From Ancylomarina subtilis (GTDB lineage: Bacteria; Bacteroidota; Bacteroidia; Bacteroidales; Marinifilaceae): a stretch of 64,000 bases of DNA. The notes below the pieces were generated by a model. It did no database searches and was not told the DNA's origin. It worked only from the letters and a program-made list of their open reading frames with translations. Both the position numbers and the translations under genes were made by a program. The stretch lies in the NCBI RefSeq assembly GCF_004217115.1, contig NZ_SHKN01000001.1, positions 933,781 to 997,780 of the forward strand, written 5' to 3'. Position 1 is the stretch's first letter. Each line of letters opens with the position of its first letter. This document shows positions 55,066 to 60,622 of this stretch, one piece after another.

Positions 55066-56268
55066 TTATACCTTTTCAAGCACAAGGGCAATTCCCTGGC
55101 CTACGCCGATGCACATGGTACAAAGGGCTTTTTTTGAATTCGAACGCTGAAGTTGATAGAAGGCCGATGTCACAATTCTGGCTCCACTCATTCCCAGTGG
55201 ATGCCCCAGGGCAATAGCGCCACCTAGAGGATTAATCCGAGAATCATAGTCATCCAGACCAAGTTCACGGATACATGCAAGTGCTTGTACAGCAAAAGCC
55301 TCATTCAACTCAATAATATCCATATCATCCAGTTTCAAACCTAAATATTTTAACAGCTTTTGGGTTGCCGGAACGGGTCCCATTCCCATAATACGAGGTA
55401 ACACACCCGCAGGTTTCATTCCCAGAATTTTAGCTTGAGCCTGCAACCCATATTTCTTCACGGCTTTCTCCGAAGCTATAATCAATGCAGCTGCGCCGTC
55501 GTTCACGCCTGAAGCATTCCCGGCTGTTATGTTTCCATTTTCACGGATGAGAGTCTTCAAGGAAGCCAGTTTTTCAAGTGAACTTAAGCGAGGATGTTCA
55601 TCTTGGTCAACAATTAGGGGCTCACCTTTTCGTTGAGGAATCCTAACAGGAATAATTTCTTCAGCAAAAAATCCCTGGCTTTGTGCATCATGGGCTTTCT
55701 CCTGACTCCAATGTGCAAACTTATCCTGATCCTCTCTGCTGATTTTAAATTTATCAGCTATATTTTCTGCCGTCTCTATCATCGATTCGGTTCCATACAT
55801 TTTGTCCAAAGCTGAATTCACAAAGCGCCAGCCTATGGTGGTGTCATAAAATTTCTGCGATCGCGAAAAAGCCGTTGGCGCCTTCCCCATAACAAAAGGA
55901 GCACGCGACATACTTTCAATCCCCCCCGCAATAATCAAATCAGCTTCACCTGCTTTTATGGCTCGTGCAGCGCTTCCAATAGCATCCATCCCCGAACCAC
56001 ATAAACGATTGATGGTTGCTCCGGATACCGTTTCGGGATAACCCGCCAGTAATAAAGCCATTCGGGCGATATTTCGATTATCTTCGCCTGCCTGATTGGC
56101 ACAACCCATCAAAACATCATCAATATCAGACGGAATTATATTGGGGTTTCGTTCCAATAAGGCTTTCAAGGGAATTGCGGCAAGATCATCGGCTCTTACC
56201 AAAGACAAAGCACCGCCATACTTGCCTACGGGGGTTCTTACAGCATCGCATATATATACATCAGTCAT
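55066..56268 (-). CDS. pcaF: 3-oxoadipyl-CoA thiolase-like acetyl-CoA acyltransferase
   Basis: A 400-residue thiolase that splits a 3-oxoacyl-CoA with CoA. Seen: the acyl-enzyme cysteine C90 in NRLCGSGMDAIGSAARAI, H356 in GHPLGMSGARI and the proton-transfer C386 in CTMCIGVGQG. The N-terminal MTDVYICDAVRTPVGKYGG, GCANQAGEDNRNIARM and FYDTTIGWRFVN are features I associate with the PcaF/PaaJ (3-oxoadipyl-CoA) clade rather than acetoacetyl-CoA thiolases. The expected products would be acetyl-CoA and succinyl-CoA. It starts 18 bp after the aminotransferase and ends the operon, as the last step of the proposed pathway. Confidence 0.9.
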   Translation of the reverse strand: MTDVYICDAVRTPVGKYGGALSLVRADDLAAIPLKALLERNPNIIPSDIDDVLMGCANQAGEDNRNIARMALLLAGYPETVSGATINRLCGSGMDAIGSAARAIKAGEADLIIAGGIESMSRAPFVMGKAPTAFSRSQKFYDTTIGWRFVNSALDKMYGTESMIETAENIADKFKISREDQDKFAHWSQEKAHDAQSQGFFAEEIIPVRIPQRKGEPLIVDQDEHPRLSSLEKLASLKTLIRENGNITAGNASGVNDGAAALIIASEKAVKKYGLQAQAKILGMKPAGVLPRIMGMGPVPATQKLLKYLGLKLDDMDIIELNEAFAVQALACIRELGLDDYDSRINPLGGAIALGHPLGMSGARIVTSAFYQLQRSNSKKALCTMCIGVGQGIALVLEKV

Positions 56269-56286
56269 AGTCTTATTCTTTTATAA

Positions 56287-57639
56287 TTATTGAAGAGAGT
56301 CCAATTGTGGTTTAAAGCGTTTAAACATATTTAAAAAGGCCTGGGATAAAATATCAATCTCTTTTTGGGTCATCGCCGTTGAAAACATGCAGGCAAGCGT
56401 ATTGATCATCATTATTTTTTCCTCATAAAAAAGATAATCCAACATCTCATTGACCAGTACTTTAGCTTCCTGATTTTGATAAGCCTCTCGATAAGTTGTA
56501 GGAGCCTTTGATTTTAAATGCAAACGAAACATCGATCCCGCTCCGGTTATAGAAACCGGAACATCCGCAATTTGAATGGCTTCCCTTATTTGAACAATGG
56601 CTTTTTGTGTTAATGCATTTAATTTCAACACAGCCTTTTCATCGAAAAGTTCCATAGCAACCCGACCAGCTGTCATACTTACGGGGTTTGCTGAAAAAGT
56701 TCCCGAATGAGGAAAAAGAAGTTTGCTTTCTCTTGGATCGAGAACTTTCATAATATCGGAACGACCTGCAAAAGCCCCCACAGGAAAACCGCCACCAATT
56801 ATTTTACCTAAAGCCGTCAGGTCAGGTTTTACGGTATAGTTTTGTTGTGCGCCAGCATAACTCACACGGAATGTCACCACTTCGTCAAAAGCAAGAAGGG
56901 CTCCATTTTTGCGTGTCCATTTATAAATGGCTTCAATAAATTCAGGCTTTCCTGGCATGAGTCCCACACGATGAGGTACCGGATCAACCAAAACACAGGC
57001 AATTTCATCAGCGTGTTCATCAAGTATGGCTATGGTTCTTTCAATATCATTGTAGGGATAAACAATAACATCATTTAATGCCCCCTGAGGCGTACCATTG
57101 GCGAGAGGAACACTATTCGGATGATTTATATCCCCCCAGTTTGTTGGATTGGCATTTTGACTCACTTCTGCATAATCATAGGTGCCATGATAGGCGCCCT
57201 CGGCCTTGGCTATTTTCGCTCGTCCTGTATAAGCACGTGAAGCTTTTATCACGGCCATCACCGCTTCGGTTCCCGAATTGACGAATCGGATTTTCTCAAA
57301 GCCCGGCGCCCTGTCGCATAACAATTGAGCATGAAGCACTTCAGCCTCAGTTGCCAGTGTGTATGCCGTTCCTTTCCTAATTTGTTCGATAACAGCATCC
57401 ACAATCTTGGGATGTGCATGACCATGTATTAATGCAGCCATATTGTTTGCAAAATCCAGTCTCTGAACACCTTCAATATCGGTTACATAACAGCCACTTG
57501 CATGACTAATATAATGAGGATAAGGTTCATGAAAAAGCGTATTTCGACTAACACCTCCCGGTATAAACTGACAAGCCTGATTGTATATTTCTTCACTGCT
57601 TCGTTTTTGCTTACGAGAAAGAATATGAGGATTATCCAT
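56287..57639 (-). CDS. Class III (GSAM-like) aminotransferase, probably acting on a beta-amino acid
   Basis: A 450-residue PLP enzyme of the glutamate-1-semialdehyde aminomutase / beta-amino-acid transaminase group. Seen: the FVNSGTEAVMAVIKASRAYTG PLP region, AYHGTYDY, D252 in LLAFDEVVTFR and PLP lysine K279 in LTALGKIIGGGFPVGA. A true HemL would sit with heme genes; this one is inside an operon with a KamA-type aminomutase, CoA-transferase and thiolase. It is likely to remove the amino group from a beta-amino acid to give a beta-keto acid; known class III beta-transaminases are close to HemL. The frame is open upstream to 57729, but ATG 57639 is 32 bp after the CoA-transferase stop and fits the fold. 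Confidence 0.85.
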   Translation of the reverse strand: MDNPHILSRKQKRSSEEIYNQACQFIPGGVSRNTLFHEPYPHYISHASGCYVTDIEGVQRLDFANNMAALIHGHAHPKIVDAVIEQIRKGTAYTLATEAEVLHAQLLCDRAPGFEKIRFVNSGTEAVMAVIKASRAYTGRAKIAKAEGAYHGTYDYAEVSQNANPTNWGDINHPNSVPLANGTPQGALNDVIVYPYNDIERTIAILDEHADEIACVLVDPVPHRVGLMPGKPEFIEAIYKWTRKNGALLAFDEVVTFRVSYAGAQQNYTVKPDLTALGKIIGGGFPVGAFAGRSDIMKVLDPRESKLLFPHSGTFSANPVSMTAGRVAMELFDEKAVLKLNALTQKAIVQIREAIQIADVPVSITGAGSMFRLHLKSKAPTTYREAYQNQEAKVLVNEMLDYLFYEEKIMMINTLACMFSTAMTQKEIDILSQAFLNMFKRFKPQLDSLQ

Positions 57640-57671
57640 AATTATAAATGAATGAGTTTGACAGAATTTCG

Positions 57672-58334
57672 CTATTGTTCGTACCGATTGAGTTTGGCAT
57701 CCGTTATTTTTTGCAAGTCGTCGAAACAAATGCCAGGTGCCATTTCTCTAACATAAAGACCATCTGGCTTGACATCAATAATCGCCAGATTGGTGTAAAT
57801 GCAATCCACAACGGCCTTTCCTGTTAATGGATAAGTACAGCTTTCAACAATTTTTGATTTGCCCGTTTTTGTTGTGTGCTGCGTGATAACCAATATGGTT
57901 TTAACACCAGCAACCAAATCCATCGCCCCACCAACCGAAGGGACTGCACCTGGTTCCCCTGTGGACCAATTGGCAAGATCACCCCTTTGAGACACTTGCA
58001 AAGCACCCAGCACACAGATATCAATATGACGGCCTCTAATCATGGTAAAACTATCGGCATGATGAAAGAAGCAGGCCCCTTTTATACTTGTAATGCTCTT
58101 TTTCCCTGCATTAATCAATTCCGGATCTTCTTTCCCAACTTCGGGTGCAGGTCCCATTCCAAGCAAACCATTTTCGGTATGATAAATCACCTCTCTACCT
58201 TCAGGAACATAGTCTGCAACCAATTCGGGCATACCAATTCCCAAATTCACATAAACGCCATCCGGAATATCCAAGGCCACCTTTTGTGCCATCTCATTCC
58301 GATTCCATCCCTTTTTAATCATCTTTAGCTCCAT
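57672..58334 (-). CDS. 3-oxoacid CoA-transferase subunit B (PcaJ/ScoB-like)
   Basis: A 220-residue beta subunit of a family I CoA-transferase. The catalytic glutamate is E54 in YHTENGLLGMGPAP, preceded by VYVNLGIGMPELVADYVP. FHHADSFTMIRGRHIDICVLGALQVS and GDLANW...GAVPSVGGAMDLVAG follow. These last patterns resemble 3-oxoadipate CoA-transferase as well as succinyl-CoA:acetoacetate transferase. It would activate the beta-keto acid by moving CoA from succinyl-CoA or acetyl-CoA. It overlaps the A subunit by 10 bp, showing translational coupling and 1:1 assembly. Confidence 0.92.
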   Translation of the reverse strand: MELKMIKKGWNRNEMAQKVALDIPDGVYVNLGIGMPELVADYVPEGREVIYHTENGLLGMGPAPEVGKEDPELINAGKKSITSIKGACFFHHADSFTMIRGRHIDICVLGALQVSQRGDLANWSTGEPGAVPSVGGAMDLVAGVKTILVITQHTTKTGKSKIVESCTYPLTGKAVVDCIYTNLAIIDVKPDGLYVREMAPGICFDDLQKITDAKLNRYEQ

Positions 58335-59041
58335 GGGTACCTCCTATCTTCAGCAACAAGTTTGGCTTCATCAGCCGGTTTTGTGATTTCAACAAGCCGT
58401 TTGACAAAAATCCCTGGTGTTACCACACATTCCGGATCAATCTCGCCCAGCTCAACAATTTTTCTTGTTTGTACAATCGTCACATCTGCTGCGGTACACA
58501 TGACGGGGCCAAAATTCCGCGCCGTTTTATTGTAGATTAAATTGCCATAGCGGTCAGCAGCTTCGCATTTCACCAAAGAAAAATCAGCCTTTATTCCATA
58601 TTCCATCACACAAGTCAAGTCATTAAATATTCGGCTTTCTTTTCCTTCTGCCAAAGGTGTGTTAACCGAAGTGGGTGTATAAAAAGCCGGAATACCTGCT
58701 CCTCCTGCTCGTATTCTTTCGGCTAGTGTCCCTTGAGGGACCAGTTCCAATTCAATCTCTCCTTTGGTATACAAATCGGGGAAAACCGTAGAGTTCGCTG
58801 TTCTGGGGAAAGAACAAATCATCTTCCTGACGCGTTTGTGTGCAATCAGTGCCGCAAGACCAACCTGCCCGCTTCCGGTATTATTACTGACTATCGTTAG
58901 CTCTTTAGCCCCCTGATCAATAAGAGCATGAATGAGTTCAATCGGTGTGCCGGCATTACCAAATCCACCAATCATGATGATGGCTCCATCAAAAATATCT
59001 GCGACAGCATCGGCTGCTGATTTTACAATTTTATTTATCAT
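58325..59041 (-). CDS. 3-oxoacid CoA-transferase subunit A (PcaI/ScoA-like)
   Basis: A 238-residue alpha subunit. Seen: the CoA-binding IIMIGGFGNAGTPIELI (about 21-37), ELTIVSNNTGSGQVGLAALI, VRKMICSFPR, LVPQGTLAERIRAGGAGIPAFYTPT and the late GEIDPECVVTPGIFVKRLV. It pairs with the overlapping B subunit. It follows the aminomutase by 36 bp. Substrate range is inferred from neighbours: a beta-keto acid, 3-oxoadipate being the best match to the thiolase. Confidence 0.92.
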   Translation of the reverse strand: MINKIVKSAADAVADIFDGAIIMIGGFGNAGTPIELIHALIDQGAKELTIVSNNTGSGQVGLAALIAHKRVRKMICSFPRTANSTVFPDLYTKGEIELELVPQGTLAERIRAGGAGIPAFYTPTSVNTPLAEGKESRIFNDLTCVMEYGIKADFSLVKCEAADRYGNLIYNKTARNFGPVMCTAADVTIVQTRKIVELGEIDPECVVTPGIFVKRLVEITKPADEAKLVAEDRRYPWS

Positions 59042-59077
59042 TAGTGGTCTATTAAAATGAAATTGATCAACTTAAAA

Positions 59078-60622
59078 TCATAACTTATTCAGTCTTCTCC
59101 CCAAAGCTTCCTGCTTCTCGTTTTCTATCTCGATCAGTTCGTCTTCAAAGAAATGTTTTTCCCCTTCGAAAGGAATGAGTTTTTCAAGCGTGTTTTCCTT
59201 CTCATCGTATTTAGCAAGGAAAACCGGATCCATCCATTCCATATTTCTCGATTCGTTGAATTTTAAAGCAAAGACTTTTTGCCCCTGAATATCAAGGGTA
59301 CCCAGTATAGATATCTTTCCTGCCGATGAGGTCATGGTAATGTATCGTGAAGGTCGATTGATAGAAGGCAATGAACGGTAGATCTTACAGAACACCTTAT
59401 TTATCTCAGACAAGGGAACCGTAAAATAGTGATGTTCTCCGGTTGGTCGGGCACAATAGATGGAATGGAAACCTACTGAAAGCATCGCAAAGATATTTCC
59501 AAGGTCGATCCAGTTTTGTGCAGAACGTTCAATATCCACTTTGCCCTTTTCATCCGTGAATAGACTAATGTGGTTCATCATCGGACTCTGACTCTTTACA
59601 ACAACACCATATAAGCGCAAACGACGTATGGCAGCAATCGTTGTTGGGTTTAAAACTTCGCGTGGGGTTGAGAAATGCGACATCCAAACCAACTGAACAC
59701 CATTATCAGTTAAGATTTTAAAGAGCTCCAGAATCTTCTGATAGTCGTGCGTTAAAAACAGATCAGGTTGGTAACTCAATGCTCTCGATCCAATCCTTAA
59801 GGTTTTAATATGAATCAGTTCCGGATCTTCAACCAGTGGCATCGCATAGGCTTTGAGTCTTTCGTAGGGCATGTATCCCCCATCACCACCCGTCAACAGC
59901 AAATCGGTCACTTCCTTATGCTTCCTCAGGTAATCGTGAACGGGTTTGATATCGATCTGATTAAACATATCCTCGTCTCCTCGTACCTGTGCATGACGAA
60001 AACAATAGGTACAAAATGCAAAACAGGACTGAGTCGTTTGATCAAAAATAAGCTGGCATTGCGGGTATTTGTGCTGACTTCCTTCCAGAACAACCAAGTC
60101 TCCCTCGTCATTTTCGAACCAGGGTTTGTTTAACTGTTGTTTCCCATCGTGAGGGTTGGTGTTTCTTCTAATATAATCCGTAATTAGACTTTGTCTCTCC
60201 TCTTCAGATTTGGCTTCTTTATAAGCCTTAAGGGTTTGAGGGTTCATCATCCCCGGCTGTGGAAAAACGAGCTGAAAAAGAGAATCCTGTTCATAGTTTT
60301 TCCAATTAATGGCATTCAATACAAATTGGGTTGCTAAAAAACGATAAACCTGAATAAAAAGTTCACGTTCCAGTTTATACCCTATATCAATACCATGGTG
60401 ATTGAGTATGTCAACAATTTCACGAAAGCCATTTAATCCCGCATAATGTTTTTGGGTCTTAAACATGAGCTCCCGCGACTCCATTATCGCCGAATGATTG
60501 GGATAGTTGGCATGCAGACGATTCAACAGGCCCAGAGGCAACAGGTTTTCTTTTTCAATAATCGAAGAGCTCTCATTACTGAAGTGTTGTCTCTCCAAAA
60601 TGCTTTTCAAAGTATTTTCCAT
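59078..60622 (-). CDS. KamA-family radical-SAM amino-acid 2,3-aminomutase of unknown substrate
   Basis: A 514-residue enzyme. It shows the radical-SAM cluster motif C200-x3-C204-x2-C207, LLLTGGDGG (242-250), IGSRALSYQPDLF, VVKSQSPMMNH and the PLP lysine K436 in SSAGKISIL, which takes the place of the PGGGGK motif of lysine 2,3-aminomutase. By eye, the two Asp that bind lysine's epsilon-amine in KamA are absent: the QCD position reads CAR (390-392) with R392 close by, and the Asp seven residues before the PLP lysine is T429. So lysine is unlikely and an acidic side chain is possible. It has a longer N-terminus than KamA or EpmB. It is the first gene of the operon. An EpmB-like role is unlikely given the length and neighbours. 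Confidence 0.85.
   Translation of the reverse strand: MENTLKSILERQHFSNESSSIIEKENLLPLGLLNRLHANYPNHSAIMESRELMFKTQKHYAGLNGFREIVDILNHHGIDIGYKLERELFIQVYRFLATQFVLNAINWKNYEQDSLFQLVFPQPGMMNPQTLKAYKEAKSEEERQSLITDYIRRNTNPHDGKQQLNKPWFENDEGDLVVLEGSQHKYPQCQLIFDQTTQSCFAFCTYCFRHAQVRGDEDMFNQIDIKPVHDYLRKHKEVTDLLLTGGDGGYMPYERLKAYAMPLVEDPELIHIKTLRIGSRALSYQPDLFLTHDYQKILELFKILTDNGVQLVWMSHFSTPREVLNPTTIAAIRRLRLYGVVVKSQSPMMNHISLFTDEKGKVDIERSAQNWIDLGNIFAMLSVGFHSIYCARPTGEHHYFTVPLSEINKVFCKIYRSLPSINRPSRYITMTSSAGKISILGTLDIQGQKVFALKFNESRNMEWMDPVFLAKYDEKENTLEKLIPFEGEKHFFEDELIEIENEKQEALGRRLNKL

Follow-up and report, generated by a model that had tools for sequence, protein, structure and literature searches.

A conserved five-gene operon with a divergent KamA-related aminomutase, a candidate route for 2-aminoadipate breakdown in Ancylomarina subtilis

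Five genes on one strand

The five-gene unit described here occupies positions 55066-60622 of a 64,000-nt stretch of the Ancylomarina subtilis genome (contig NZ_SHKN01000001.1), the whole of which is referred to below as the window. All five open reading frames (ORFs) lie on the minus strand and follow one another, in the direction of transcription, as a KamA-related radical S-adenosylmethionine (SAM) protein, CoA-transferase A, CoA-transferase B, a class III aminotransferase, and a PcaF-type thiolase. The first gene (59078-60622) encodes a 514-aa radical SAM/pyridoxal phosphate (PLP) aminomutase, which we propose to be a 2-aminoadipate 2,3-aminomutase from its weak KamA-family scores, residues, clade, and fold model. 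It is followed by the A (58325-59041, 238 aa) and B (57672-58334, 220 aa) subunits of a 3-oxoacid CoA-transferase, recognized by TIGR02429 and TIGR02428 respectively as well as by PF01144, with 3-oxoadipate or 3-aminoadipate as the putative substrate of the A subunit. Next comes the aminotransferase (56287-57639, 450 aa, PF00202), which we propose to work as a beta-transaminase on 3-aminoadipate or on the CoA ester of that compound, and the 400-aa 3-oxoadipyl-CoA thiolase of the PcaF type (55066-56268, TIGR02430) completes the unit.

The genes are closely packed, with gaps of +36 between the aminomutase and CoA-transferase A, -10 between the two CoA-transferase subunits, and +18 between the aminotransferase and the thiolase. 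As listed, the aminotransferase ORF opens on a TTG at 57729, which creates a 58-base overlap with CoA-transferase B. Its first ATG is found at 57639, which is probably the true start and leaves a gap of +32. Five same-strand genes in this order had been read from the DNA in the original prediction, which the ORFs and family models confirm; the spacing given there (+36 to -10) agrees once the aminotransferase begins at ATG 57639. A scan for promoter- and terminator-like sites gave no excess over shuffled sequence.

A divergent aminomutase

In profile searches, the aminomutase had no Pfam match and passed no curated NCBIfam cut-off. Its best NCBIfam model is TIGR00238, the KamA family, with 64.1 bits against a cut-off of 199.2, and it falls far short of the models for lysine 2,3-aminomutase (TIGR03820, 57.5 vs 525.4 bits), arginine 2,3-aminomutase (TIGR04468, 53 vs 600), and glutamate 2,3-aminomutase (TIGR04368, 49.8 vs 650). 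The protein nevertheless displays what defines the radical SAM 2,3-aminomutase superfamily, that is, the three-cysteine motif, the PLP lysine, and the fold. An AlphaFold2 model, which has a mean pLDDT of 83.5 but is less certain near the cluster loop and at residues 393-398, finds as its best Foldseek match the lysine 2,3-aminomutase 2a5h, with an E value of 4e-12. Two chains of this entry, with TM-scores of 0.47 and 0.58 for a model whose cluster loop is of low confidence, are the only matches with E <0.001.

Alignment of 63 operon aminomutases with two canonical KamA proteins shows which parts of the active site have been kept and which have changed. Cys200, Cys204, Cys207, Arg209, and the PLP lysine, Lys436, are present in 63/63. 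By contrast, two positions that are Asp in both KamA proteins, where these residues bind the side chain of lysine, are replaced throughout: position 392 is Arg in all 63, and position 429 is Thr in 36 and Ser in 27. The same two Asp are also changed in glutamate 2,3-aminomutase. The charge reversal from Asp to Arg392 would suit a substrate that bears a distal carboxylate.

A tree of 102 rows, built by a quick method without bootstrap, separates the 63 operon aminomutases from all other sequences at one branch (support 97) and places them next to a clade (support 98) of 29 Bacteroidota paralogs; both groups are far from KamA. The operon enzyme thus has in common with lysine 2,3-aminomutase the best fold match, the three cysteines, Arg209, and the position of the PLP lysine, but differs from it in its score, its separate clade, and both Asp replacements. 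Together with the presence of a separate KamA in the same genome (see below), these differences indicate that, as judged by sequence, it is not a lysine 2,3-aminomutase.

The sister clade is widespread in Bacteroidota, with proteins ~33-40% identical to the operon enzyme, and retains the PLP lysine and Arg392; its substrate may be acidic. The genome of the window has a member of its own (L112:8129-9454), with relatives in L003-L030. The surroundings of these paralogs are little conserved, the commonest neighbor occurring in 6/28 loci when stretches of ~4 kb are compared. L115-L122 and L128 hold another set of KamA-like proteins, ~390 aa in length, of which the four included in the tree group together with full support.

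The accompanying enzymes

The aminotransferase belongs to the class III fold family (PF00202, 193.6 bits). Its best NCBIfam model is TIGR00713 (hemL), at 348.1 bits below the cut-off of 527.3, and its closest solved structures are 6k8h, ForI, and HemL enzymes, with the beta-transaminases 4ao9 and 2yku lower down. Both CoA-transferase subunits pass curated cut-offs (TIGR02429, 338.4 bits vs 128.5, for A; TIGR02428, 300.5 vs 243.55, for B) of models that cover PcaIJ and ScoAB alike and do not distinguish between them; their best solved relatives are succinyl-CoA:3-ketoacid CoA-transferases. The thiolase scores 680 bits for TIGR02430 (pcaF) against a cut-off of 597 and has the beta-ketoadipyl-CoA thiolase 6pca as its second-best solved structure.

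Another thiolase, 45% identical to that of the operon, and another CoA-transferase subunit, 42% identical, are encoded in or near the lysine-fermentation region of the same genome. Since these separate enzymes exist, a CoA-transferase and thiolase that use acetoacetate only are a less likely reading of the operon pair.

Conservation of the unit

A contig scan with the aminomutase and one ortholog as queries returned 154 relatives, from which 80 loci were kept. A lack of conserved co-occurrence had been named in the original prediction as one of the outcomes that would refute it. In fact, 64 of the 80 loci retain all five genes, in the same order and on one strand, so that the prediction passed this test and the arrangement is not due to chance. 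Among the remaining 16, 14 are cut by a contig end; at L087 an aminoadipate-semialdehyde (AASA) dehydrogenase gene follows the aminotransferase before the contig ends, and at L101 there is no thiolase within the next 7 kb. In the 64 complete loci, the pairwise identities of the five proteins correlate with one another (r 0.70 to 0.79).

The host labels of the operon sequences in the tree span 13 phyla, many of them being those of metagenome bins in which single labels are possibly wrong. Among named relatives, Ancylomarina salipaludis comes closest (96%). The distribution is patchy: six of 58 close relatives carry the operon, a match of >60% identity in a 296-genome sample of the phylum was found in the window's own genome and in one other (G070) only, and in the phylum to which L105 belongs the operon occurs in 1/198 genomes, which is the L105 genome itself.

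Two kinds of regulator recur near the operon. One is a gene related across 14 loci (L039:950-1588 and 13 others), which precedes the operon in 13/14 and, in L106, is situated 7.7 kb downstream of it; its product in L039 contains a cupin domain as well as a helix-turn-helix. A LysR-type gene recurs instead in 18 operon loci, gammaproteobacterial ones included.

Lysine-pathway genes around the operon and in carrier genomes

Genes for the conversion of lysine to 2-aminoadipate flank the operon in 8/80 loci, which belong to three lineages: Cloacimonadota, one Ramlibacter bin, and a clade of five mostly labeled Desulfuromonadales or Deltaproteobacteria. In L047 and L051, a saccharopine dehydrogenase gene and a gene resembling that of lysine-ketoglutarate reductase (LKR) are located immediately upstream, on the same strand. 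In the other six (L087, L088, L101, L105, L106, and L110), an AASA (piperideine-6-carboxylate) dehydrogenase over the curated cut-off is found at distances ranging from adjoining the operon to ~5 kb. L105 and L106 also encode a protein of the saccharopine dehydrogenase fold, 25.8% identical to that of L051 and with 3abi as its best solved relative, which we infer to be a lysine 6-dehydrogenase, and L088 has a pipecolate-oxidase-like gene (458.6 bits, below the cut-off of 600). The available flanks of the other 72 loci, many of them short, contain no such lysine-pathway gene.

Genes of this kind are also present away from the operon. The genome of the window encodes an LKR whose best solved relatives are the LKR domains of AASS, a saccharopine dehydrogenase, and an AASA dehydrogenase. 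All three types are found in one cluster in the L083 genome, and LKR adjoins AASA dehydrogenase in the L052 genome. At the thresholds used, one or more of the three were detected in 32 of 50 carrier genomes, and the full set in 12. LKR was detected in 24/50 carriers (E <1e-50, L051 query) vs 76/296 genomes of the phylum sample (E <=1e-40, window-genome query), figures that are not strictly comparable. Among the 58 close relatives, LKR and AASA dehydrogenase are both present in 6/6 carriers vs 12/52 non-carriers (Fisher p 0.0005, shared ancestry being ignored). We did not accept genome-wide co-occurrence as proof, since AASA dehydrogenase (153/296) and LKR (76/296) are so widespread in the phylum sample that the presence of upstream genes is by itself weak evidence.

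The search for another sink of 2-aminoadipate in carriers covered HGLS, the enzyme family of the 2-oxoadipate route. PF07063 (HGLS) matched in 32/50 carriers, the window's genome included, and reached at least 140 bits in 3 only, a result that would fit the presence of a second sink as well as its absence. Ten gammaproteobacterial carriers (G313, G319, G320, G321, G322, G324, G328, G330, G331, and G338) have a short HGLS-family protein with an aldehyde dehydrogenase, far below the AASA dehydrogenase cut-off, within ~1 kb; the pair is perhaps part of another amino-acid pathway.

The genome of the window contains, in addition, a canonical lysine-fermentation cluster (L114:787-10870, contig C1) composed of KamA, lysine 5,6-aminomutase, Kdd, and Kce, in which KamA passes TIGR03820 with 630.6 bits vs 525.4. 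The organism may consequently have two lysine breakdown routes. Kce is over its cut-off in 3/50 carriers.

A probable 2-aminoadipate pathway and its alternatives

We infer each substrate and reaction of the operon from what was observed, namely gene content, gene order, clade, residues, and neighbors. On these grounds, the operon probably corresponds to the lower half of a lysine degradation pathway, running from 2-aminoadipate through 3-aminoadipate and 3-oxoadipyl-CoA to succinyl-CoA and acetyl-CoA. Lysine would be converted to 2-aminoadipate by LKR, saccharopine dehydrogenase, and AASA dehydrogenase, encoded elsewhere in the genome. The radical SAM/PLP aminomutase would then move the amino group from C2 to C3, yielding 3-aminoadipate, which the aminotransferase and the two-subunit CoA-transferase would turn into 3-oxoadipyl-CoA. 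In doing so, the former would probably pass the amino group to 2-oxoglutarate, and the latter would probably draw CoA from succinyl-CoA. Finally, the thiolase would cleave 3-oxoadipyl-CoA to succinyl-CoA and acetyl-CoA. The operon steps would involve no decarboxylation and no net oxidation.

This breakdown of 2-aminoadipate is the simplest reading that accommodates gene content, residue changes, thiolase type, and neighbors. Comparative evidence supports the pathway of the original prediction, in which 2-aminoadipate was the best substrate: the flanks of the eight loci, the upstream genes in the window's own genome, the pcaF cut-off passed by the thiolase, and the Asp replacements all point the same way. 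That prediction placed transamination before CoA activation. Activation may instead come first, which would be compatible with the order of the genes and with the existence of Kat, a transaminase known to act on a CoA ester. Since Kat, which is also HemL-like, needs a CoA-type thioester (PMC3149608), the compound on which the transaminase of the operon really acts may be 3-aminoadipyl-CoA. It is also rather likely that the aminomutase is the first member of a family of 2-aminoadipate 2,3-aminomutases and that the operon, a five-gene unit in hosts of some 13 phyla, constitutes a final part of lysine degradation that has not been described before, perhaps with the CoA ester arising ahead of transamination and the genes thus in the order of the reactions.

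Several findings weigh against this. The most serious gap lies in the gammaproteobacterial carriers, for which no source of 2-aminoadipate was found: at the thresholds used, none of the three upstream genes (LKR, saccharopine dehydrogenase, and AASA dehydrogenase) was detected in 18/50 carriers, 13 of which are labeled gammaproteobacteria. AASA dehydrogenase is no commoner in carriers (21/50 over the cut-off) than in the phylum sample, the contrast among close relatives rests on two genera, and the upstream genes of the window's genome are at three sites, none of them near the operon. Close plasmid relatives of CoA-transferase A have a lysine context only in part: the best match, from Tistrella (66.8%), has an AASA dehydrogenase and a gene of the HGLS family at a distance of ~2 kb, and the next annotated ones, from Pseudosulfitobacter, are near an ExaC-type aldehyde dehydrogenase. 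Lastly, because 29/29 of the sister paralogs, which are without the operon, also carry Arg392, this residue is not specific evidence for 2-aminoadipate and suggests an acidic substrate rather than this one in particular.

Arg392 would indeed suit any acidic side chain, and glutamate 2,3-aminomutases exist (TIGR04368). The operon could thus convert glutamate to 3-aminoglutarate and 3-oxoglutarate, with CoA activation and thiolysis to malonyl-CoA and acetyl-CoA. We consider this unlikely, given the very low TIGR04368 score, a thiolase that passes the 3-oxoadipyl-CoA model, flanking metabolic genes of the lysine/2-aminoadipate type, and the expectation that glutamate would require no such detour. 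A little less probable still is a divergent lysine 2,3-aminomutase producing beta-lysine, which would be transaminated, activated, and cleaved, perhaps after N-acetylation, as happens with the kamA-yod genes of Bacillus and in the beta-lysine pathway long known from Pseudomonas. The neighboring genes are related to lysine, and a like enzyme set (KamA, aminotransferase, and CoA-transferase) occurs in Bacillus, but the five genes include no acetyltransferase or deacetylase, and lysine as the substrate was set aside on the family score, the loss of both Asp in 63/63, and the canonical KamA of the same genome. Leucine or another neutral amino acid, degraded via its beta isomer, is chemically possible with these enzyme classes and yet highly improbable with a charged Arg392 at the side-chain position, a dicarboxylic-type thiolase, and lysine-pathway neighbors. 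Equally improbable is an operon working in reverse, from succinyl-CoA and acetyl-CoA to 2-aminoadipate or 3-aminoadipate: the reactions are reversible in principle, but condensation by thiolase is unfavorable, and the flanking saccharopine dehydrogenase, AASA dehydrogenase, and pipecolate-oxidase-like genes indicate breakdown.

Related systems

The proposed breakdown of 2-aminoadipate has features in common with several known pathways. In the beta-ketoadipate pathway, 3-oxoadipate derives from aromatic compounds. Its last two steps (PcaIJ and PcaF) use the same CoA-transferase family and thiolase as the operon, which has an aminomutase and an aminotransferase in place of the aromatic supply. 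The known bacterial sink for 2-aminoadipate, via 2-oxoadipate (HglS), strips the amino group from C2 and releases a carbon as CO2; from the same entry compound, the operon would instead shift the amino group to C3 and keep the carbons. The kamA-yodPQRST genes of Bacillus subtilis bring together an aminomutase, a class III aminotransferase, and CoA-transferases A and B, with a true lysine 2,3-aminomutase, an acetyltransferase, a deacetylase, and no thiolase, whereas our operon has a thiolase and neither an acetyltransferase nor a deacetylase. Bacillus KamA and YodT are listed as putative enzymes in PMC6522883.

Lysine fermentation with Kat (PMC3149608) starts with an aminomutase and employs a CoA-transferase, a thiolase, and a HemL-like transaminase whose substrate is a beta-amino compound, all types that the operon shares. 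It differs in reaching 3-aminobutyryl-CoA by way of KamA, lysine 5,6-aminomutase, Kdd, and Kce; the last three are not among the operon's five genes, which therefore do not constitute a canonical lysine-fermentation set. In one carrier genome (G314), the location of a HemL-like aminotransferase gene (L140:6013-7260), next to Kce, Kdd, KamA, and genes resembling those of CoA-transferases, makes its product a candidate for Kat. This protein is 24.7-31.3% identical to 68 operon aminotransferases and thus not their ortholog.

The original prediction knew of no described pathway with this gene set. None was found in searches of open-licence literature, but the claim needs qualifying, because Bacillus kamA-yod and Kat fermentation (PMC3149608) are partial precedents. 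Among the matches listed in that literature, which does not extend to subscription journals, 3-aminoadipate is not described in lysine degradation; the term turned up in a paper on meteorite amino acids and, in another paper, in a reference title only.

Significance

Enzymes that deaminate 2-aminoadipate are said, in PMC7241714, not to be known for the lysine-to-adipate path, so that enzymes acting on this compound in the manner proposed would be of practical interest. Genomes with the operon may at present be misread, either as lacking a 2-aminoadipate sink or as encoding a lysine 2,3-aminomutase. If true, the pathway proposed here would account for a conserved operon whose aminomutase passes no curated NCBIfam or Pfam cut-off, represent a new specificity among radical SAM aminomutases, and add a carbon-keeping end to lysine degradation.

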